Positions 2,713 through 33,063 of a stretch of DNA of 64,000 nt are shown here, piece after piece. Under the pieces are notes generated by a model, which was not told the origin of the DNA, did no database searches, and saw only the letters and a program-made list of their open reading frames with translations. This stretch comes from Verrucomicrobiia bacterium (lineage in GTDB: Bacteria > Verrucomicrobiota > Verrucomicrobiia > Verrucomicrobiales > DEV007). The translations under genes and the position numbers were made by a program. The stretch is taken from contig JAUICH010000010.1 in NCBI GenBank assembly GCA_030427505.1, positions 1-64,000 of the forward strand. Reading direction: 5' to 3'. How positions within the stretch are numbered: position 1 is the stretch's first letter; every line of letters begins with the position of its first letter.

Positions 2713-4479
2713 TCAGTTACCGGACGTCGCTTCCACGATTACGCGAAAGCCCGTGCCGGTATGGCTGGCCCGGGGGTGATCGTAGTTGTGAGTCATCGAC
2801 GATATGAAGGTTTGTGTGTAGTGGTTCCAGTTGGCGCCCCGCAACACCCGGTAGGGAGTCTCGCCGTCCTTGGAGATCTCCCGCTCGAAGGAGGGGTATT
2901 CCTCCAACACCTCCCGGCTGTTCATGGAGGCGCGGTATTCGTCTTCACACCATTCCGCGACATTGCCGCCCAGATCGAAAAAGCCGAAGCGGTTCATCTT
3001 GAAACTAGCCACGGGGGCGGTGTTCCAGTAGCCATCGTCGTAGTCATAGGCCGTGGACCATCCGGTCCCGGGCAGGACTTCATTCTTCTCCCCTCCGGCG
3101 TAGTTTCCCGAGCCTTTCGGAGGCGGCCATTCGTTGCCCCAGGGGTATTTGCTTAGAGAACCCACCGCGGCGCTCCACTCTTTGGCCGTGGGCAAGCGGT
3201 ATTGGAGCCCGGATTCTTTCGCGGAGAGCCATTCGCAGAATTTCTTTGCTTCCTCCCAGTTCACGCCCACCACGGGGTGATTTTCCGTTTGGGAAAAGCC
3301 GGGGTTGTCCCAGTCATAGTTTTCGTCCAGCTCAAACTTGGTGCTGTAGGAGCCGTTTTCATTTTCGACCACCTTCTGGACATTGATGCCGGGGTAGGGT
3401 TTGTATCCCGTCGCGTCCACATAGGCCTGGTAGTCGCGCACCCGCGTCTCCGTCCGGCACAGCAGGACACCTTGCCGGCCCGGCACGGGAACGAACTCCA
3501 TTTCCAGGGAGTTTACGAAAGGCCGCTCCACGCTGGCCGCGCGCAGGCGGTCGGCGTGTGAAGACACCGGGAGCGAGCCCAGCATGCCCGTTCCGTTGCT
3601 GCTCCCCGGCACGAAGGCAAAGCCCAGTCCAGAGGGCTCCAGCTTGCTGTATTCCGCTGGCTCGTGCTGCACGCCGCGGCCCGTGCGCTGCATCTCCGTG
3701 GAGCGTTCCCGCACGGTGGTGCGGGTTTGAGCGAACACTTGCATCAGGCTCAGGCCCGGTTCCTTGAGCGTCTCCGCCAACACGGGCGTAAAGAGGCCGT
3801 CATTGGCCTGCTGCCCCGCGTCCGCGCTGTAGGAAATGAGCATACCGCTGGGCGCGGTCACCCGGCCCAGGCCGCCTTTCGTGCCGACCACGGCGCGGGA
3901 GCCGGTGGAGGTCTTTACTTCCAGCGGATTGTCCCGGCAGGCGTCCAGAATCACCAGTTTCAGGTTTGCCTGGGTGTCGTCCAGATCGTCGATGAGTTTC
4001 CGCAGCGGTAGGGCTTCGTAGTAGAGGCGTTCCTTCATGCGCTGCACGCTTTCGTTCTGAGATTCAACTTCCGTGTCCCGGCACAGCAGGTAGTTCTCGC
4101 CAAAGTATTCGATGCCGTGCCCGGCAAAGTAGATCAGCGCGCACTCCGCGCCCTTGGCCTGGGTGGTGAAATTGTCCAGCGCCCGGGAGCAATCTTCCCG
4201 CGTGGGGTTCTTCAGGGTGGTGACCTGAAAGCTGGGAGAAAGCGAGCTCAGCGTCTTGGAAAGCAGTTCCGCGTCCCGGACTGCCACGGCCAGTTGGCCG
4301 GAGGCCGGCAGGTGGTCGTAGTTGTCACCCCCGATAATCAACGCCACGCGGTCCGCGGCATGGAGCGAGAGCGGGGCGGTGGAGCAGAGAAATCCAGCTA
4401 GGGAAAACACCAGACCGAAAGCGGAGCGGGCAATGGAGCGGCGGATGGGACTACAGGCTGGGAATCTTTCCGTTTTCAT
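2713..4479 (-). CDS. Exported caspase-like peptidase fused to FGE-type domain (copy 2)
   Basis: 588 aa, the closest paralogue of the downstream copy, with long identical runs through the peptidase half. The signal peptide ends near LSLHAAD. The catalytic pair is His121 (YFAGHG) and Cys181 (LDACRDNP). The FGE-type domain runs from about 318 to 585 with YPWGNEWPPP and DLGGNVAEW. At the FGE copper-cysteine positions it has His and Phe (RGANWNHY...F), so FGE catalysis is not expected. It has its own copy of the upstream element, so it is probably transcribed separately although the three genes are head to tail. The peptidase halves resemble each other more than the C-terminal ends do, which fits a shared activity with diverging recognition domains. 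Confidence 0.88.
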   Translation of the reverse strand: MKTERFPACSPIRRSIARSAFGLVFSLAGFLCSTAPLSLHAADRVALIIGGDNYDHLPASGQLAVAVRDAELLSKTLSSLSPSFQVTTLKNPTREDCSRALDNFTTQAKGAECALIYFAGHGIEYFGENYLLCRDTEVESQNESVQRMKERLYYEALPLRKLIDDLDDTQANLKLVILDACRDNPLEVKTSTGSRAVVGTKGGLGRVTAPSGMLISYSADAGQQANDGLFTPVLAETLKEPGLSLMQVFAQTRTTVRERSTEMQRTGRGVQHEPAEYSKLEPSGLGFAFVPGSSNGTGMLGSLPVSSHADRLRAASVERPFVNSLEMEFVPVPGRQGVLLCRTETRVRDYQAYVDATGYKPYPGINVQKVVENENGSYSTKFELDENYDWDNPGFSQTENHPVVGVNWEEAKKFCEWLSAKESGLQYRLPTAKEWSAAVGSLSKYPWGNEWPPPKGSGNYAGGEKNEVLPGTGWSTAYDYDDGYWNTAPVASFKMNRFGFFDLGGNVAEWCEDEYRASMNSREVLEEYPSFEREISKDGETPYRVLRGANWNHYTQTFISSMTHNYDHPRASHTGTGFRVIVEATSGN

Positions 4480-6616: not shown

Positions 6617-8029
6617 TCAGGCCATGACGCCTTTCACTACGTCGCCATAGACGTCAGTCAGGCGGAAGTCGCGGCCGGCGTAGCGGTAGGTGAGTCTTTC
6701 GTGGTCCAGACCCATCAGGTGCAAAATGGTGGCGTGCCAGTCGTGGATGTGGACCTTTCCGTCCACCGCTTCGTAGCCAAACTCGTCCGTGCTGCCGTAG
6801 GTGGTGCCGCCGCGCACGCCGCCGCCCGCCATCCACAGGGAGAAACCCTTGTTATTGTGATCGCGCCCATCGGTGCCCTGAGCGTGCGGAGTGCGGCCGA
6901 ATTCACCGGCCCAGATGACGAGCGTGTCCTTCAGCATGTCGCGCTGTTTCAGGTCGGTCAGCAGGGCGTGAATGGGCTGGTCGGTTTGAGCGGCATTATT
7001 CGTCAGCGACGCTTTCAAATTGCGGTGGTGATCCCAGTTGCCTTGGGAAATCTCGATGAATCGCACCCCGGCCTCGGCGAAGCGGCGGGCCAGCAGGCAC
7101 TGGCGGCCAAAGTCGTCCGTGGTGTCATTGCCGATGCCATACATCTCCTGGATCTTCTGGGGTTCCTTGGAGAGGTCCATCACCTTCGGCACTTCGTCCT
7201 GCATGCGGAACGCCAGCTCGTAGGATTCGATGACGCCTTCTACTTCCGGTTGATAGGATTCGCGCGCCAGTTTCTCGCGGTTGAGGGACTGTACCAGGTC
7301 CAACTGGATGCGCTGCAAATCGGACGAAAGCCGGGAGTTCGAAATGTTCGGGACCTTGGCGCTCCGCAGGGAGCGGCGCTCCTGACCGATGGCGGTGCCT
7401 TGATAGATCGCGGGCAGGAAGCCGCTGCCGTAGTTCTGCGCTCCACCAAAGCCGATGGAGGGATTGATGGTGATGAAGCCGGGCAGGTTCTCGTTCACCG
7501 TGCCCAGTCCGTAGAGCGTCCACGCGCCCAGGGAAGGGCGGACGAACTGGAAGTTCCCCGTGTGCATCTGGACAACGGCCTGCGGGTGGTTCGGCAGGTC
7601 CGTGGCCATGCTGTTCACAATGCACAGGTCGTCGGCGTGCTCCGCCACCTTGGAATACAGCTCGGAAATGTGGAGACCGCTCTTGCCGGAGGGCTTGAAC
7701 TCAAAGGGCGATCCGAGCAGCTTAGCGCCGCCGCGGGCGCCATATTTGCCGGGCTCTCCGCTGTGTTTCTTGAGCTCCGGCTTGTAGTCAAAGGTGTCCA
7801 GGTGCGAAGGACCGCCGCGCATGCAGAGGAAGATCACCCGCTTCGCCCGGGGTTGGAAGTGAGGCGCTTTGGGGGCCAGGGGGCTTTGCGCTTTCTCGGC
7901 GGCCATGGTGCTCAGCCCGGCAAAGGCCAGGTAGCCAAAGCCGCTGGAAAGGCTTTTCAAAGCCGCGCGCCGGGACATGCCGAGTCCGTCCGGCAGGGCA
8001 ACACGATTGGGTGAGCGATGAAGTTTCAT
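6617..8029 (-). CDS. DUF1501 family exported protein
   Basis: 470 aa. A twin-arginine-like signal (MSRRAALKSLSSGFGYLAFAG) is followed by a full DUF1501 domain with an alkaline-phosphatase/sulfatase-like core: VIFLCMRGGPSHLDTFDYKP near the start, LVIWAGEFGRTP and RDHNNKGFSLWMAGGGV in the middle, and a GRDFRLTDVYGDVVK ending. The family is abundant in planctomycetes and verrucomicrobia and is nearly always encoded next to a PSD1/cytochrome gene, as here, where it lies 52 nt downstream of one. Biochemistry is not established. A role in degrading complex, possibly sulfated, polysaccharide is inferred from context in the phylum. Confidence 0.9.
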   Translation of the reverse strand: MKLHRSPNRVALPDGLGMSRRAALKSLSSGFGYLAFAGLSTMAAEKAQSPLAPKAPHFQPRAKRVIFLCMRGGPSHLDTFDYKPELKKHSGEPGKYGARGGAKLLGSPFEFKPSGKSGLHISELYSKVAEHADDLCIVNSMATDLPNHPQAVVQMHTGNFQFVRPSLGAWTLYGLGTVNENLPGFITINPSIGFGGAQNYGSGFLPAIYQGTAIGQERRSLRSAKVPNISNSRLSSDLQRIQLDLVQSLNREKLARESYQPEVEGVIESYELAFRMQDEVPKVMDLSKEPQKIQEMYGIGNDTTDDFGRQCLLARRFAEAGVRFIEISQGNWDHHRNLKASLTNNAAQTDQPIHALLTDLKQRDMLKDTLVIWAGEFGRTPHAQGTDGRDHNNKGFSLWMAGGGVRGGTTYGSTDEFGYEAVDGKVHIHDWHATILHLMGLDHERLTYRYAGRDFRLTDVYGDVVKGVMA

Positions 8030-8081
8030 GGCGGTGACGATGCTGGTTTTGGTGGCTTGTTAGGGGGTGGAAGGTGGCTGA

Positions 8082-10580
8082 TTAGTTCAGGTAGCGGAAT
8101 TCGGCGGAGCCATACAGCGCCTGACAGAACGCGCTGACCGCCAGGTCCCGTGCGGCATCCAGGTCTTTGCCCTCCGCTTCGGCGGCGGCGATGAAGCGCT
8201 TGAAGTAGGCCAGGGTGGTCTTCATCTCTCCCTCGGTGGGCATACGGCTCATCGTCAGGGCGTAGGCGAGGGTGATGCGGTCGATCGGTTTTTCTTTCTC
8301 CGCCACGATGCGTTTCGCCAGCGCATCCGCCTGGGAGATGACGAAGGGGTTATTCATCATGTAGAGCGCCTGGGAAGGAACATTGGTGATCTCCCGCGTT
8401 CCGGACACCATGCCTGGGTCCGCGAAGTCAAAGACGTCCAGAGACTCCGGCAGCAGGTCGCGAATCACCGGCAGATAAACGGAGCGGTAGTCCTTCTCTT
8501 TTTCGACGATGCTTTCGTCAATGGTGCGGCCCACCAGGCCATTGCCCGCGCTGGCTACCACGGACCCGTGGGGCGGTTGGGTATCCAGTTTCCCGCTGGC
8601 CGCCAGCATGGCATCCCGGAGAGATTCCGCATCCAGGCGGCGGGGAGACATCCGCCACAGCAGCGCGTTGTCCGCGTCAGCCAGAAAGGCTTCCTTGTCG
8701 AAGTCCGAGCTCTGGCGGTAGGTGCTGCTCAGGACAATCTCGCGGATCAGTGTCTTGATGGACCAGCCTTCCTTCTGGAAGCGCAGGGCCAGATAATCCA
8801 GTAGCTCGGGATGGCTGGGCGCCTGGCCCGTGGTGCCGAAGTTGTCTACGCTGGTGACCAGGCCTTTTCCAAAGAGGTAGTGCCATACCCGGTTTACCAT
8901 GACCCGGGCGGTGAGGGGATTCGCGTCATCGGTTATCCATTGCGCCAGTTCCAGGCGTCCGCTCTGGTTGTCGGGAATGGCCGGCGCTTCGCCGGTGTAA
9001 AGCACCTGCACGAAGCCACGGGGCACTTGGTCCGTTGGCTGGTCGATGTCTCCCCGCACCAGCACGTTTGCGTCAGCGGGGGTCAGCTTGTCCATTACGC
9101 CCATGACGAAGGGGCGCGGCTGGCCCTCGTCATCGACGCTGGCGATCTTGCTTTGTAGGTCAGAGATGCGGCTGTTCAAGGCCAGCAATTGCAGCCGGAT
9201 ATTACCCGGGTCGTCACCAGCGCGCTGCATTTCCCTTGCTTGACTCTGCAATTCCTTCTGCCGCTCGGTTTGCTGGTACAGTTGATACTCCATGTCGATG
9301 ATTTCTCCCAGGGTGTAGGATGGCGCGGTGGGGTTCTTGTCTTTCACCGGCAATACCATCAGATCGGAGCCCCTGCGCACGCCCAGAGAGTTCACGGTGC
9401 CGTAGTAGGTGTCCGTGCTCAGGAAAATTCCGGCCAGGGAGTAGTAGTCTTTAGTGGGGATGGGATCGAACTTGTGGTCGTGACAGCGCGCGCAGGCCAC
9501 CGTGGTCGCCAGGACCGCTTGGGTCACGGTGTCGATCTGTTCATCGACTTGGTCCATGGTGAATTGGCGCAGGTTACCCTCGTTCAAGGACTTCGGACCC
9601 ATGGCCAGGAAACCCGTCGCGATTAGGTTTTCCGCCCGCTCCTCCGGGCTGTCGCTGTGCAGGAGGTCGCCCGCGATCTGCTCGGTCAGGAATTCGTCAT
9701 AGGGTTTGTCCGCGTTGAAAGAATCGATCACGTAATCCCGGTAACGCCAGGCGAAGGGATAGGTCAGGTTCGCTTCCTTTCCGCTGGACTCCGCGTAGCG
9801 GGCCACGTCCAGCCAGTGGCGGCCCCAGCGTTCGCCGAAGTGCTCGGACTCCAGCAGGCGGTCCACCACTTTCTCGTAAGCCTTCGGATCTTCGTCCTTC
9901 AGGAAGCCGCGCACTTCTTCAATGGTGGGTGGCAGACCGGCCAGGTCGAAATACACGCGGCGCAGCAGCGTCATCTTGTCCGCTTCCGCGGAGGGTTGCA
10001 GGCCTTTCTCTTCCAGTTCAGCCAGGACAAAGCGGTCAATTTTGGAGGACGGCCACTCCGTCTGTTTGACTTCCGGCAGGTCCGGCATCTTGGGCGCTTG
10101 ATAGGCCCAGTGTTCGCGGCCGGCTTCGATGTCGATGGTGAGGGAGGTGATGGGCATCACTTTGTCAGCCTTGCGTGGGTCCGGCGCGCCCATCAGGATC
10201 CACTTTTCAAAGTCCGCGATCACCGCTTCCGGCAGCTTCCGCTTCGGCGGCATTTCGTAGTCTTCATCCGCGTAGGTAATGGCGGTGAAGAGCAGGCTCT
10301 CCTGGAGGTTTCCCGGTACCACGGCGTGGCCGCTGTTCCCTCCTCGTAGTATCGCGTCGCGATTGTCCAGCAACAGGCCGCCCTTGATCTTGTCGCCCTC
10401 CTCGGAGTGACATTTGAAACACTGCTCCACCAGCACGGGACGGATTTTCTTTTCAAAAAAGGCAATGCCCTCGGCGTCAGCGTTTGGGTCCGTTTCTTCA
10501 GCCTGAGTGATCGCTGGAAACACGGCGCAGACCAGCACAATGGCTAAAGATACTTGGGCGTTCTTGGTGAATTGAATCAT
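8082..10580 (-). CDS. PSD1 and planctomycete cytochrome C domain protein
   Basis: 832 aa. The signal peptide ends near ITQAEE. The N-terminal planctomycete cytochrome domain has one heme c motif, CFKCH at residues 54-58. After it come DUF1549 (PSCyt2; FVLAELEEKGLQPS...RRVYFDLAGLPPT) and DUF1553 (PSD1; LAQWITDDANPLTARVMVNRVW, then ALYMMNNPF) through to the end. The family is thought to be a periplasmic redox partner of exported degradative enzymes, but no reaction is proven. It lies 52 nt upstream of the DUF1501 gene in the same direction, so the two probably form an operon. Confidence 0.92.
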   Translation of the reverse strand: MIQFTKNAQVSLAIVLVCAVFPAITQAEETDPNADAEGIAFFEKKIRPVLVEQCFKCHSEEGDKIKGGLLLDNRDAILRGGNSGHAVVPGNLQESLLFTAITYADEDYEMPPKRKLPEAVIADFEKWILMGAPDPRKADKVMPITSLTIDIEAGREHWAYQAPKMPDLPEVKQTEWPSSKIDRFVLAELEEKGLQPSAEADKMTLLRRVYFDLAGLPPTIEEVRGFLKDEDPKAYEKVVDRLLESEHFGERWGRHWLDVARYAESSGKEANLTYPFAWRYRDYVIDSFNADKPYDEFLTEQIAGDLLHSDSPEERAENLIATGFLAMGPKSLNEGNLRQFTMDQVDEQIDTVTQAVLATTVACARCHDHKFDPIPTKDYYSLAGIFLSTDTYYGTVNSLGVRRGSDLMVLPVKDKNPTAPSYTLGEIIDMEYQLYQQTERQKELQSQAREMQRAGDDPGNIRLQLLALNSRISDLQSKIASVDDEGQPRPFVMGVMDKLTPADANVLVRGDIDQPTDQVPRGFVQVLYTGEAPAIPDNQSGRLELAQWITDDANPLTARVMVNRVWHYLFGKGLVTSVDNFGTTGQAPSHPELLDYLALRFQKEGWSIKTLIREIVLSSTYRQSSDFDKEAFLADADNALLWRMSPRRLDAESLRDAMLAASGKLDTQPPHGSVVASAGNGLVGRTIDESIVEKEKDYRSVYLPVIRDLLPESLDVFDFADPGMVSGTREITNVPSQALYMMNNPFVISQADALAKRIVAEKEKPIDRITLAYALTMSRMPTEGEMKTTLAYFKRFIAAAEAEGKDLDAARDLAVSAFCQALYGSAEFRYLN

Positions 10581-26959: not shown

Positions 26960-27484
26960 ATGAAGGCCCATGACCGCCAGTATCTGCGCCGAAAGCGCTT
27001 CTTCAAAGTCAGTGCACACCAGTTTGCCAAGCTGCATTCCGTGGCTTGGCGCGCACAACAGGCTGATCACCTGGAAGTCTGTGGAATTGTCTTTTCGAAG
27101 GATGGTTTCCACCTTCATTTCAAGTTTCTGAGGAACGAAGTTTGTGGACCGGGTTCCTACAGGATCTCAGGCGAGACAATCGAGAATGCCGTGAGGGGCC
27201 TGGCTGATTTGGGTCATGAAGTTGTTGGATCGTTCCACTCTCATCCTGTCAGCAGCGCCTTGCCGGGAGACCGGGACAGGAAATCCGGGTTTCTCAGAGG
27301 CACTCAGTTTATCTATGACGTGTGCCTACGAGACTTGCGAGGTTGGCGACTTAGGAATCGCAAAAAGGACATTCTGTCGGAGATTCCAATCGATTGCGGC
27401 AAGCCGATGACCGAGATGGATGGCTATCAAAGTAAGCCGCAATGGTTTTCCTCAATTCAACTCCGGAATGTAACACCCCAGTGA
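26960..27484 (+). CDS. JAB/MPN (JAMM) metalloprotease-like protein
   Basis: 174 aa from ATG 26960. It carries a JAMM-type zinc site: Glu39 (HLEVCGIV), His93 and His95 in SFHSHP, and Asp106 in ALPGDRD. The Ser of the usual HxHP...PSxxD signature is Gly103. Bacterial JAB proteins cleave isopeptide or C-terminal extensions of ubiquitin-like or sulfur-carrier proteins, but no such carrier, E1 or E2 gene is adjacent. Base composition is low: four 60-base lines I counted average 50% G+C against 67% for a line in the neighbouring methyltransferase, so recent acquisition is likely. Its 3' end overlaps the convergent redoxin gene by 33 nt. Confidence 0.78.
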   Translation: MKAHDRQYLRRKRFFKVSAHQFAKLHSVAWRAQQADHLEVCGIVFSKDGFHLHFKFLRNEVCGPGSYRISGETIENAVRGLADLGHEVVGSFHSHPVSSALPGDRDRKSGFLRGTQFIYDVCLRDLRGWRLRNRKKDILSEIPIDCGKPMTEMDGYQSKPQWFSSIQLRNVTPQ

Positions 27485-28081
27485 CTCCACCCGGGCGTGT
27501 TCCACAGGTTTGCCCGCCAGGATGGCGTCCAGGGCATTGCGCAGATCGTGAACGCGGGCCTGATTGCGCCGGTCACCATAACCAGCGTACTGGTCGTCGA
27601 TCCGGCCCAGGTAAACCAACTGGCCCTTGGCGTCAAAGACGGCGGTTTCCGGGGTGACTTCCGCGCCCGTCGCGGCTACCAGCCGGTGCTTCCGGTCGAT
27701 CACCACTGGCGGTTCAATCCGGTATTCTTCCGCGTGCTTCACCGCTTCGTCCGTGGCCAGATCGGGGTCTACCTGGACCAGGGTCAGGGAAACGCCTTTT
27801 GGGGAGTATTCGGAAAAGATGCGATTGATCTCCGGCACATAGCCATTGGCGATCGGACAGTCCGTCGTCGTAAAGATCACCACGGCGGCCTTTCCGTCCG
27901 CCGGCGGAACCAGGGGTTTCACGGTCTTTCCCTGAATCGTGGCGAGCGAGATATCAGCGGGGGCCTCCGCGGTTGCCGCTGCCGCGGGGGAGGGATCTTC
28001 TGGGGTTCCCGAGATCGCGAATGGCATTGGCGCGCCCAAACAGAGAGCGGCGACAAAGAGAGGGAAGGTGGTTTTCGGCAT
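27452..28081 (-). CDS. Exported redoxin/thioredoxin-fold protein
   Basis: 209 aa. The signal peptide (LFVAALCLGAPMPFAISG) precedes a redoxin domain with a single catalytic-type cysteine in TTDCPIANGYVPEINRIF, then GAEVTPETAVFDAKG and LGRIDDQYAGYG. Only one Cys sits in the active-site loop, so peroxiredoxin-like or metal-delivery chemistry is more likely than a disulfide pair. It is downstream of the two heme/copper proteins in the same direction. In related bacteria this domain is, to my knowledge, often fused to the N-terminus of such proteins. Confidence 0.82.
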   Translation of the reverse strand: MPKTTFPLFVAALCLGAPMPFAISGTPEDPSPAAAATAEAPADISLATIQGKTVKPLVPPADGKAAVVIFTTTDCPIANGYVPEINRIFSEYSPKGVSLTLVQVDPDLATDEAVKHAEEYRIEPPVVIDRKHRLVAATGAEVTPETAVFDAKGQLVYLGRIDDQYAGYGDRRNQARVHDLRNALDAILAGKPVEHARVESLGCYIPELN

Positions 28082-28140
28082 GGGTCTTAGGGGCTTTGTC
28101 AGGGTTCGGGTTGTTGGAAAAGATGTAACGCGATGGGCGG

Positions 28141-29676
28141 TCAGCGCGGCTTTTTCTTCTTCGCCATCTCATCCAGGAAGGCGCCGTTCTTTTCAATCTC
28201 CGCCACGGTGACGGTCTTGCTGCCGTCCTGGTCTAGAAGGGTGAAAGGCACGGCGTATTCCGCGGGAACTTCGTCTTTGGAGAGCACGTCGTCCGCGTTC
28301 TCGTCCAGTCGCATGACCATGTAGGTGCGGATGGCGAGACGGCGGCGTTCTTCAAAGCGCTGCTTGGATTCCCGGGCCTGGGCATTCAGTCCCTGTGCCA
28401 ATTCCGCCTGACGGCCTTTTTCCGCGGCGACGCATTGGAAAATCAGGCTGCCCATTTCGTCCGTGGACTGCTCGCCCCAGTAGATTCGTTTGGGAGGCGT
28501 GTTAGGATTTGAGGAATTCTCCGCTGAATTGTCGTAGGTGATGCGGGCGTCGATCTGCGTGCCCTTGGGAAGCCTCAGCGGTTCTTCGTAAGCGTACTGG
28601 CCCTGCCAGTTGAAATCCCAACCGCCGATGCGGAAGAGGCGTTGCTTCGTTCCATCGGGCAGGGTCGCTTCCGCCTGCATGGAAGTGCAGACCTGGTGGG
28701 CATGCCCCCAGACGGAAATCAGGTCCGTGTCTTCCGGGATGATGAGGTGGTCTTCCACCACATACTCAGAATCACCCGGCGCGATGGTAATGCCCACCGG
28801 ACTCCCAAAGTTTGGCGGCACCTGGAACTCTAGCAGTCTTCGCTCCGGCGCGGTGTCAGCGAAGTATATGCCGATCCTGGTCTTTTCCCGCTCCACTTTC
28901 CCGGTGGGGTGAAAGTGTGTTTGCAAGACCAGGTCCGAGCCTTTGGGCAGCGGTCTCGCGTGACCTTCGGGCAGCTCCAGCGGTGTGCCGCCCACCGCCC
29001 AGCCACCCAGGGAGCCCGTGGCCTTAAAACCTTTCCCGCTAAAGCCCGCCGCTTTCTGGTCTTCCTGCTGTAGCGTCCGCGCCTTGCCGGTGTTGTCCAG
29101 GAAGAACAATACGTGGTGAACCACGGAGCGGACAGCGGGCCGGACTTCCACGGCGCGGACCCATTTGTCTTCGCTTAGGTTTAACGGCAACGCGAAATAG
29201 CGATAGATGTCATTGCCTTCCGCGTGAATCTCGAAGTCTTCATCCATCTCCACCACCAGGTCCGGTTTGCCGAGGTGCCAGCCCTCCGGAAACTCCGGCA
29301 GAGCGGGAGTGAGGGCGGGATCTCCCTCCGGAGCGCCAGCGGCTACCCAGCGGCCGATCAGGTCCTTTTGCTCGGGGGTGAGACGCCGCGTCCCACGAAA
29401 CTCGCCCCAGCCTTTCTCCGGGTGCCAGGGCGGCATGTAGCCTTCGTCGATGACCACCCGCTGAATGGTCCGGGCCCGGCGTTTCACCGAGTTGTAGTCC
29501 GTAAACGAAAAGGGCGCCGCCTCACCGGGCCGGTGACAGACGGTGCAGTTTTCATACACAATCGGCGCGATGTGCTCGGCAAAGGTGACCTCTTCCGAGG
29601 CGGAGACCGGAAAATTACTCGCGGCCAGGACGCCGGAACCGAATAGGACGAACAATCTGGAAGAATGGGGATTCAT
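28141..29676 (-). CDS. Exported heme c / copper type II monooxygenase-like protein with EF-hand (copy 2)
   Basis: 511 aa from ATG 29676 (frame open to 29805, but the signal peptide starts here). A heme c motif CTVCH (44-48) is followed by RPGEAAPFSF and MPPWHP. The middle is a two-domain copper monooxygenase (PHM/DBH-type) fold. All six copper ligands are visible: His187-His188 (SVVHHVLFF) and His254 (LQTHFHP) for the first copper, His325 and His327 (WGHAH) and Met407 (STDEM) for the second. The C-terminus has EF-hand-like loops (DENADDVLSKDE, DQDGSKTVTVAE). It probably acts in the periplasm as an oxygen-using hydroxylase or a copper redox protein, substrate unknown. Paralogue of the gene 82 nt upstream. 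Confidence 0.85.
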   Translation of the reverse strand: MNPHSSRLFVLFGSGVLAASNFPVSASEEVTFAEHIAPIVYENCTVCHRPGEAAPFSFTDYNSVKRRARTIQRVVIDEGYMPPWHPEKGWGEFRGTRRLTPEQKDLIGRWVAAGAPEGDPALTPALPEFPEGWHLGKPDLVVEMDEDFEIHAEGNDIYRYFALPLNLSEDKWVRAVEVRPAVRSVVHHVLFFLDNTGKARTLQQEDQKAAGFSGKGFKATGSLGGWAVGGTPLELPEGHARPLPKGSDLVLQTHFHPTGKVEREKTRIGIYFADTAPERRLLEFQVPPNFGSPVGITIAPGDSEYVVEDHLIIPEDTDLISVWGHAHQVCTSMQAEATLPDGTKQRLFRIGGWDFNWQGQYAYEEPLRLPKGTQIDARITYDNSAENSSNPNTPPKRIYWGEQSTDEMGSLIFQCVAAEKGRQAELAQGLNAQARESKQRFEERRRLAIRTYMVMRLDENADDVLSKDEVPAEYAVPFTLLDQDGSKTVTVAEIEKNGAFLDEMAKKKKPR

Positions 29677-29758
29677 GGTAAGGGCAGTAACCAGTGCCAA
29701 CATACTACAGGAGCGGTCCGCGATGCAAAACGCGCAAATGCGTGGGTACCGCCACGGA

Positions 29759-31366
29759 TTACCTGTTGCCGGGGGAGACCGAGGCTGTCTCGCCGCCGCT
29801 GGCACGGGCTTTCAGGCTGTCCAGAAAGTCGTGGAGGGTCTGCATCTCATCCGAGTCCAAAAAGTCATTTCCATCGCTGTTCAGCCGGTCGAACAGCCGG
29901 TTCTGGAGCCGGGGCGGCAGTTCGTCGCGTTGCAGGTTTCCGTCCTGGTTGGCATCCATGGAGTTCAGGATCTGGGGCAGGCGTTCCAGGAGCGCGCCGT
30001 TGCGCAGTTCCGAAGCCAGCTTACCCAGCACCGCGCCCTGGTTGCGCGCCGTGGCCATGGTCAGGCGCAGGCTGTCGCCGTCGTCCGCTGGGACCACCAT
30101 CAGGGTAATGCTGCCCATCTCGTCCGTCGATTCCCGGCCCCAGCGGACCCGGACCGGCGGGTAGTTCGGGTTGTCCGGATTGTCCTCTGAGTTGTCATAC
30201 CGCAGTTCGGATCTCAGCACCGTCCCGGCGGGTAGCCGGACGGGTTCCTTGAAGTAGTAGCGGTCCTGCCAGTCCAGGTCCCAGTCGGCGATGTAGAGCA
30301 AAGGTTTTTCCGTGCCGTCCGGCAGCGTGGCCGTCATTTTCATTTCCTGACAGATGTAGTGAGCGTGCCCGCCCACGCTGATGGCGTCCACGTCCACCGG
30401 CAGGGTGAAGGTGTCTTCAATTTTGTAGTTTGGTTCGCCCGCCGGAATATCGATCCCCATGCCGCGGCCGAAGGCGGGCGGGACCTGGATGCTGGCGATC
30501 TTCTTGCTGGATGGCTTGTCCGCGAAGTAAATGCCGACGGTGGTCTGCTCCACCTCCGCCTTTCCGGAAGGATGGAAGTGGGCGGACAGGATCAGATCGG
30601 AACCCTTCGGCAAAGGCAGCGCCAGGTCGCCCGGCAAGGGCAGGGTGGCGCTTCCTGGAATGTAGCCGCCCAGGCTGCCCGACCGGCGGAAGGCCATGCC
30701 GCGAAAGCCCGGCTGTCCGTCCTGACCGTCCAGCTTCCGTGCCGTGCCGGTGTCGTCCAGGAAGAACAGGACGTGGTGCACCACGGAGCGCGCGCTGGGG
30801 CGCAACTCCACGGCTTTGACCCATTTGTCTTCTTCCAGGTTCAGGGGCAGCACGAAGTTCCGATAGAGATCCGGCCCGTCAGCCGGGACGGAAAAGCCCG
30901 CCGGCATGGTCAGGACCAGGTCCGGTTCGCCCAGTTGCCAGCCCTCGGGGAAAGTCGGCGGGGTGGGGGCTTTGTCAGGATCTCCCTCCGGCCGGCCGGC
31001 TTCCACCCATTGGTTAAACAACGCGATGTCCGCGTCGCTCAGGCGCCGTTCGTGGGCAAACTCGCCGTAGCCCGGTTCCGGGTGCCAGGGCGGCATGTAG
31101 CGGTCGTTCATGACGCGCTTCATGGTGCCCGCTTTCTTAGAGACTTCCTCGAAGGAGATCAACGAGAACGGCGCGGCCTCGCCCGGACGGTGACAACTGG
31201 AGCAGTTATTGTGGATCAGCGGCGCAATCTGCTCGTTGAAGGTTGGAACCGCCGCGGCCTCCGGCTCCGGCGTGTTTCCAACATCGGGAGACGCCAGCAA
31301 CGGAACGACCCCAAGCCTCAGGGCGGCCAGGGAGCCGGCGGCGGTGAAAAGGATTCGATGTTTCAT
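29759..31366 (-). CDS. Exported heme c / copper type II monooxygenase-like protein with EF-hand (copy 1)
   Basis: 535 aa. The signal peptide is followed by heme c motif CSSCH (55-59), RPGEAAPFSL and MPPWHP. PHM-type copper ligands are His197-His198 (SVVHHVLFF), His263 (SAHFHP), His334 and His336 (GHAH) and Met417 (STDEM). A cluster of Asn/Pro (RYDNSEDNPDNPNYPP) precedes the Met as in PHM relatives. C-terminal EF-hand-like loops are DANQDGNLQRDE and NSDGNDFLDSDE. It is first in an apparent three-gene unit with its paralogue and a redoxin. The heme domain could feed electrons to the coppers in place of ascorbate (inference). Confidence 0.86.
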   Translation of the reverse strand: MKHRILFTAAGSLAALRLGVVPLLASPDVGNTPEPEAAAVPTFNEQIAPLIHNNCSSCHRPGEAAPFSLISFEEVSKKAGTMKRVMNDRYMPPWHPEPGYGEFAHERRLSDADIALFNQWVEAGRPEGDPDKAPTPPTFPEGWQLGEPDLVLTMPAGFSVPADGPDLYRNFVLPLNLEEDKWVKAVELRPSARSVVHHVLFFLDDTGTARKLDGQDGQPGFRGMAFRRSGSLGGYIPGSATLPLPGDLALPLPKGSDLILSAHFHPSGKAEVEQTTVGIYFADKPSSKKIASIQVPPAFGRGMGIDIPAGEPNYKIEDTFTLPVDVDAISVGGHAHYICQEMKMTATLPDGTEKPLLYIADWDLDWQDRYYFKEPVRLPAGTVLRSELRYDNSEDNPDNPNYPPVRVRWGRESTDEMGSITLMVVPADDGDSLRLTMATARNQGAVLGKLASELRNGALLERLPQILNSMDANQDGNLQRDELPPRLQNRLFDRLNSDGNDFLDSDEMQTLHDFLDSLKARASGGETASVSPGNR

Positions 31367-31623: not shown

Positions 31624-33063
31624 ATGAGACTTACCGCCTCTCTGGCCGCCCTGTGTCTGGCGGCGTGCCCCGCCTTTGTTCACGCCCAAAAGAAACCTAA
31701 AGGGCCAGACCCCGCGCTGGTGGACGGCGAAAAGTCCCTGGCCATGGTGAATGCCTTGGAGGACTGGACCACGCTCTTCAACGGCAAGGACCTTACTGGC
31801 TGGGGGGGCGATACGGAAAACTACACCGTGGAAGATGGCGTGTTGGTTTGTCCCGCTGGCGCAAAGGTGCTCCACACGGAAAAAGAGTACGGCGACTTCG
31901 TCTTCAGCTTTCAGTTTAAAAACACTCCTTCCGGCAACAATGGCATCGGCATCCGCGCCCCGGCGGAAGGCAATGCCGCCTACGACGGCATGGAGATCCA
32001 GATCCTGGATCACGACGGCGACAAATACGGCAAAGTCGACGAAGAAACCGGGAAACGGCTTTCCTGGCTGAAGCCCTGGCAGGTGCATGGCTCTCTCTAC
32101 GGCCTCTACCCGGCCAAGACCGGGTACCTGAAGCCCGTGGGCGAATGGAACGAGGAAACCATCATCTGCATCAACGACCATGTGAAAGTCATCCTGAACG
32201 GCGCCGCCATTCTGGACGTTTATCTGGACCAACTGACCCCGCTGGACGGTCACGATCACCCCGGCATGAAGCGCGAGAAAGGTCACATCCTCCTGGCCGG
32301 ACACAGCGATCACGTCGAGTTCCGCGACCTGAAGGTGAAAGACCTCTCCGTCAGCCCGCCAAAGCCGGAGACGGACGCGGACAATACCCCGCCGGCTGGA
32401 TTCACCTCTCTCTTCAACGGTACGGACCTCACCGGCTGGAAAGGCTTGGCCCACAAGAACGCCTTGGAGCGCCGCGCTCTGGAAGGGGACGCCCTGAAGG
32501 AAGCCCAGGCCGCCGCCGATGAAGTCATGCGCGAACACTGGCGCGTGGAAGACGGGACCCTGGTCTACGACGGCCTGGGCCAGAGCCTCTGCACCGCCAA
32601 GGACTACGGCGATTTCGAACTTTACGTGGACTGGAAGATCCCGCCGGGAGCCGACTCCGGCCTCTACCTGCGCGGCACCCCGCAAGTGCAGATCTGGGAT
32701 CCCTGGGACAAACGCGCCAAAGAAGGCGAAGAGGTCAACACCCCGGAAGAATGGGTGACTGCTTACAAAAACGGCCGCAACCTGGGCTCCGGCGGCCTGT
32801 GGAATAACAAAAAGCACCGCAATTCCCCCCTGGTCCTGGCCGACAATCCTCCCAGCGAGTGGAATACCTTCTTTATCCGCATGGTCGGGGAAAAGGTGTC
32901 CATCTGGCTGAATGGCAAACTGATCGTCGATGACACGGTTCTCGAAAACTACTGGGACAAAACAGGGCTGACCCCCGTTTTCCGCGAAGATCAGATCGAA
33001 CTCCAGCACCATGGCAGCGAACTCTTCTTCAAGAACCTCTACCTGCGGGAACTGCCTTACTAG
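31624..33063 (+). CDS. Exported protein with two DUF1080 (3-keto-disaccharide hydrolase) domains
   Basis: 479 aa. The signal peptide is MRLTASLAALCLAACPAFVHA. Two DUF1080 domains follow, each opening with an LFNG.DLTGW motif: residues about 50-240 (TLFNGKDLTGWGG) and about 258-478 (SLFNGTDLTGWKG). Both are concanavalin-like beta sandwiches. Some family members hydrolyse 3-keto-glycosides and others bind glycans. The two halves differ clearly, so the duplication is old or one half is a binding domain. No promoter stands out in the 257 nt upstream. Confidence 0.9.
   Translation: MRLTASLAALCLAACPAFVHAQKKPKGPDPALVDGEKSLAMVNALEDWTTLFNGKDLTGWGGDTENYTVEDGVLVCPAGAKVLHTEKEYGDFVFSFQFKNTPSGNNGIGIRAPAEGNAAYDGMEIQILDHDGDKYGKVDEETGKRLSWLKPWQVHGSLYGLYPAKTGYLKPVGEWNEETIICINDHVKVILNGAAILDVYLDQLTPLDGHDHPGMKREKGHILLAGHSDHVEFRDLKVKDLSVSPPKPETDADNTPPAGFTSLFNGTDLTGWKGLAHKNALERRALEGDALKEAQAAADEVMREHWRVEDGTLVYDGLGQSLCTAKDYGDFELYVDWKIPPGADSGLYLRGTPQVQIWDPWDKRAKEGEEVNTPEEWVTAYKNGRNLGSGGLWNNKKHRNSPLVLADNPPSEWNTFFIRMVGEKVSIWLNGKLIVDDTVLENYWDKTGLTPVFREDQIELQHHGSELFFKNLYLRELPY

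Follow-up and report, generated by a model that had tools for sequence, protein, structure and literature searches.

The copper monooxygenases PHM and DBH, which have been described mainly in animals, depend on ascorbate, and the path by which electrons cross the about 11 Å between their two coppers is still debated. Among secreted copper monooxygenases, LPMO receives its electrons from the cytochrome of cellobiose dehydrogenase. PHM (1opm, 3mll) consists of a two-domain beta-sandwich core in which six copper ligands follow one another in a fixed order. DBH (4zel) has the same copper ligand set, namely H262, H263 and H333 together with H412, H414 and M487, and carries an extra N-terminal DOMON domain with the fold of the cellobiose dehydrogenase cytochrome domain (PMC4846438).

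We analysed a window of 64,000 nucleotides from a Verrucomicrobiia bacterium (contig JAUICH010000010.1), in which three adjacent genes on the minus strand encode, in the order P1, P2 and redoxin, two proteins with this ligand set behind a heme c motif, followed by a redoxin. Our main reading, to which we assign a probability of roughly 0.68, takes P1 and P2 for PHM/DBH-type copper monooxygenases, periplasmic or secreted, that are equipped with their own electron-transfer cytochrome and with a redoxin partner. The features of the locus are the following.

29759-31366, minus strand: P1, 535 aa, with predicted signal peptide, heme c domain, PHM/DBH-type core, C-terminal helix and candidate EF-hand pair (translation; ligand invariance; profile; AlphaFold/Foldseek).
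P1 heme c domain: C55-x2-C58-H59, with M91 as the likely axial ligand.
P1 copper core: candidate CuH ligands H197, H198 and H263; candidate CuM ligands H334, H336 and M417.
P1, about residues 471-510: C-terminal candidate EF-hand pair.
29677-29758, minus strand: P1/P2 spacer, 82 bp, no terminator-like site (sequence; scan).
28141-29676, minus strand: P2, 511 aa, same architecture as P1 (alignment; weak Pfam Cu2_monooxygen and Cytochrome_CBB3 matches; tree).
28082-28140, minus strand: P2/redoxin spacer, 59 bp, no terminator-like site (sequence; scan).
27452-28081, minus strand: predicted secreted redoxin, 209 aa, with C75 (CPxx), C203 (C-terminal GCxI) and a TPE loop at 143-145 (Pfam Redoxin; Cys conservation; solved relatives).

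Since both spacers are short and the scan detected no terminator-like site in them, the three genes likely form a single transcript. For P2, the start is most likely the ATG at 29676, which gives 511 aa, and not the GTG at 29805 that opens a longer reading frame. N-terminal hydrophobic, signal-like segments are present in the sequences of P1, P2 and the redoxin, and P1 and P2 are predicted to be secreted or periplasmic. Divergently from P1 and 257 bp away, a plus-strand gene (31624-33063) encodes a two-domain protein of the 3-keto-disaccharide hydrolase family; neighbour clustering showed that it is not conserved beside the relatives.

The first-pass annotation of this DNA had recognised the HH, H, HxH and M motifs in the order of PHM in both proteins. 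Indeed, P1 and P2 each contain HH, H, HxH and EM in that order, and H197, H198, H263, H334, H336 and M417 do not vary among the 103 full-length relatives, a set that includes the window pair and that was picked by alignment coverage, not by motif. The distance between H336 and M417 is 81 residues in 84 of these sequences. Because the ligands, the CxxCH motif and Met91 are invariant in 103 relatives that were not selected for them, with near-fixed spacings, a chance origin of the ligand set is excluded.

The same annotation had called a PHM-type site complete. This stands for the ligands and the fold, but the Pfam copper models barely match P1 or P2, and a family profile or the fold is needed to recognise it. 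Scanned one by one with the Pfam and NCBIfam models, the sequences gave almost no copper-domain signal: the Pfam copper-monooxygenase models gave E = 0.018 and 0.24 with P2 and no match in P1, and P2 scored 15.6 and 11.3 bits, below the curated cut-offs of PF01082 and PF03712 (30 and 23 bits). PF03712 matches 41 of 77 relatives at E <= 0.01; the scores below cut-off reflect the detection limit of the models and not a loss of ligands. A genome search with PF03712 was empty even for its controls, so that the absence of a model match was not read as absence of the domain. P1 alone, compared with the PDB by phmmer, returned the EF-hand and chance matches only, and AlphaFold run from the single sequence was uninformative (pLDDT 32.5).

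We then collected relatives, aligned 77 of them and used the resulting family profile in an hmmsearch of the PDB, which retrieved rat PHM with E 4.7e-8 and human DBH with E 1.3e-7. In the alignment with PHM, HH falls on H107/H108, H263 on H172, HxH on H242/H244 and DEM on D312-E313-M314, and the CuH histidines described for PHM are the same ligand set (PMC6123673). Structure prediction compared with PHM, which the first-pass annotation had proposed as a check, agrees: the AlphaFold2 model made with the family alignment reached pLDDT 89.8 and pTM 0.82, and its first 31 Foldseek matches in the PDB were all DBH or PHM with probability 1.00, DBH (4zel) being the best, while the TM-score of the predicted model, normalised to PHM length, was up to 0.66 (3mll). 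As far as alignment and fold can tell, the His and Met residues would come together in two copper sites, and the predicted fold together with the six aligned ligands places P1 and P2 in the copper type II PHM/DBH superfamily. P1 shares with PHM the two-domain core and the order of the ligands at 12-16% identity in the fold alignment, but, apart from those of the heme motif, its only Cys is C339, and its core hence has no internal disulfide. C339 lies near the CuM motif and might have been an extra copper ligand; this idea was dropped, the position being Cys in 28 and Gly in 60 of the 103 relatives.

Besides the ligands, part of the second shell of PHM is retained, since Q367, Y370 and E416, which by position count along the PHM alignment are Q272, Y275 and E313 of PHM, are invariant (Q367 in 103/103). 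In PHM, Q272 belongs to a water network that runs H108-Q170-Q272-substrate (PMC6123673). At the position of Q170, P1 has Ser and P2 has Gln.

That PHM is the best profile match among solved structures could suggest that P1 and P2 are true peptidylglycine hydroxylases amidating secreted peptides, but we hold this to be very improbable and the least likely of the readings considered here. R240, N316 and Y318, which hold the peptide carboxylate in PHM, are replaced by G332, S419 and T421 in P1, and across the 103 relatives these positions are Arg in only 3, Asn in 1 and Tyr in 12. With these carboxylate-binding residues lost, peptide amidation by P1 or P2 appears unlikely, and homology gives no indication of the substrate. 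In addition, the PAL partner domain is missing, as Pfam detected no PAL-type domain in P1 or P2.

P1 and P2 further differ from PHM at both ends of the chain, by an N-terminal heme c and C-terminal candidate EF-hands. The N-terminal heme motif had also been noted at first pass, and we observed one CxxCH in each of the two proteins, with C55, C58, H59 and M91 identical in 103 of 103 relatives and C55 and M91 separated by 36 residues in 102 of them. The conservation of M91 was partly helped by the seed peptide of the search, YMPPWHP, a bias from which the relatives found by profile are free. This pattern fits an electron-transfer cytochrome of the mono-heme, class I-like kind with His/Met ligation, and the host genome has two matches above cut-off to the cytochrome-c assembly model Cytochrom_C_asm. 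From C55 to H197 the distance is 142 residues in 77 of the 103 relatives and 140-147 in all of them, across phyla. This near-constant heme-to-HH spacing suggests a fixed geometry between heme and copper, and makes it more likely that the cytochrome replaces ascorbate as the electron source, as we infer.

DBH also has an extra N-terminal domain, but this is a DOMON and not a heme c, and the enzyme uses ascorbate and has no redoxin. In the cellobiose dehydrogenase/LPMO system, as proposed for P1, a cytochrome supplies a copper monooxygenase, but there is only one copper, the heme is of type b, and cytochrome and copper enzyme are separate chains. As such, belonging to the PHM/DBH superfamily is nothing new; the built-in heme c and the dedicated redoxin are what differs.

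The redoxin matches Pfam Redoxin (PF08534) with E = 1.5e-10 and 41.4 bits for a cut-off of 26.6, and its C75 and C203 are invariant in our curated alignment. It contains no CxxC (the window protein has CPIA) and so is without the motif of the thioredoxin/ResA type; the full peroxiredoxin signature PxxxTxxC is absent as well. The closest solved relatives, 2ywi, 3u5r and 2cvb (E 5e-31 to 1e-25), match it nearly end to end and share the CP motif, and 2ywi and 3u5r also share the C-terminal GCxI, but they are stand-alone proteins, annotated as uncharacterised or probable thiol-disulfide, with no copper-enzyme partner known.

The first-pass annotation had mentioned redoxins fused to such proteins elsewhere. 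The fusion is real: among 96 non-redundant relatives the redoxin is in the same polypeptide in 25 and in a neighbouring gene in 56 (53 on the same strand, 3 on the opposite one), and the 15 relatives without a redoxin include some at contig ends. With only four strong redoxin-profile matches in the 6.4-Mb window genome, fusion or adjacency in 81 of 96 relatives is not due to chance. It is this frequency that argues for heme c, copper core and redoxin forming one unit, as had been proposed. For the fused proteins, a positional rule put the redoxin at the N-terminus in 18 and at the C-terminus in 7, and a first search, run with a single sequence on a set that differed slightly, assigned 23 to the N-terminus and 2 (L021 and L022) to the C-terminus; we trust the latter split more, as the former depends on the rule. 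On another contig of the window genome (locus L124 on C4, 955-2214, minus strand), a further member of this redoxin group carries a CxxC thioredoxin domain (FCAPC) in the same chain, and no copper protein was seen in the 3.5 kb examined there.

In the mechanism that we propose for P1 and P2, once loaded with copper and heme, a periplasmic donor would deliver electrons singly to the His/Met heme c, which would pass them to CuH (three His), and CuM (two His, one Met) would bind O2 and hydroxylate a C-H bond of a substrate other than peptidylglycine. The redoxin, in the same unit, would probably take part in thiol redox chemistry or in the handling of peroxide, by way of the Cys75/Cys203 pair.

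The consistent association with a Prx/thioredoxin-group redoxin, which has CP and no CxxC, together with the fact that some copper monooxygenases, the LPMOs, can use H2O2, would also fit a copper core driven by H2O2 as a peroxygenase or oxidase, with the redoxin supplying, sensing or removing peroxide and the heme priming Cu(I) once. We consider this unlikely, because the ligand set is typical of an enzyme that depends on O2 and two electrons, because a permanently attached heme suggests that electrons are needed in every cycle, and because the redoxin is without the full peroxiredoxin signature. Proteins of the TlpA/ResA/Sco type act in copper and cytochrome maturation, and the two invariant Cys of the redoxin and its weaker matches to ResA in the PDB could point to a role in loading the sites, as copper chaperone or thiol reductase, the PHM-like protein then storing, sensing or reducing copper or another acceptor without any hydroxylation. 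We regard such a redox or copper-handling unit as quite unlikely, given that a mere binding protein would have no need of the invariant Q272, Y275 and E313 equivalents and that no further conserved gene lies nearby. Neighbour clustering over the loci indeed gave no other widely conserved partner gene, and the substrate is therefore not guessable from gene context.

Returning to the monooxygenase reading, it may extend beyond this locus. At slightly less than even odds, P1 and P2 would represent widespread bacterial self-reducing two-copper monooxygenases, in which heme c feeds CuH, the redoxin completes the cycle and the substrate class lies beyond those of PHM and DBH. If true, this self-reducing class would be an ascorbate-independent branch of the PHM/DBH superfamily, and the joining of a heme visible by spectroscopy to the copper pair would make electron transfer directly followable.

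P1 and P2 are 48% identical in alignment, and the closest named relatives of P1, from verrucomicrobial MAGs, are at 61-66%. Besides these two, the 6.4-Mb genome contains no further full-length copy. In the tree, P1 belongs to a clade of 12 members (support 100/99) and P2 groups with two genomes of the same family (100/100), and we rejected a recent duplication on account of these separate supported clades. Moreover, the P1 type occurs elsewhere with its own redoxin (L007), as does the P2 type (L093), and for these two reasons the window joins two old paralogues beside one redoxin. Their adjacency and probable co-transcription with a single redoxin might suggest that P1 and P2 are the two subunits of a heteromer sharing that redoxin and not two enzymes; this we find improbable, as the occurrence of each type alone beside a redoxin implies that each can work alone. 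At an Armatimonadota locus (L061) there are two redoxin-fused copies.

The architecture is not unique to the window genome: it was found in at least five phyla, environmental bacteria included, and a phylum survey scored at least 17 of 289 genomes as positive, a lower bound, since at most six candidates were scored per genome and with a strict cut-off. No plasmid relative and no phage family was found. Our literature search found no study of the bacterial members, and, with most subscription papers beyond its reach, this is weak evidence of absence. With a family this common in environmental bacteria, oxidation of C-H bonds by secreted enzymes in soil and sea may still await assignment.

The C-terminal EF-hand-like loops reported at first pass were also seen, as two 12-residue loops in the sequence of each protein. 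Those of P1, DANQDGNLQRDE and NSDGNDFLDSDE, are canonical by eye and score below the Pfam cut-off (17.4 vs 25), and EF-hand models match 11-14 of the relatives. In acidobacterial and Puniceicoccaceae relatives (L046 5644-7965, L047 5299-8127 and L048 5911-8058), the copper core is followed by C-terminal TPR repeats.

Further away in the window, a PSCyt1-PSCyt2-PSD1 (DUF1549/DUF1553) protein and its DUF1501 partner (6617-10580, minus strand) correspond to a planctomycete/verrucomicrobial secreted cytochrome pair without assigned function. In the protein encoded at 2713-4479 on the minus strand, a caspase-like (Peptidase_C14) domain is joined to one that resembles formylglycine-generating enzyme.
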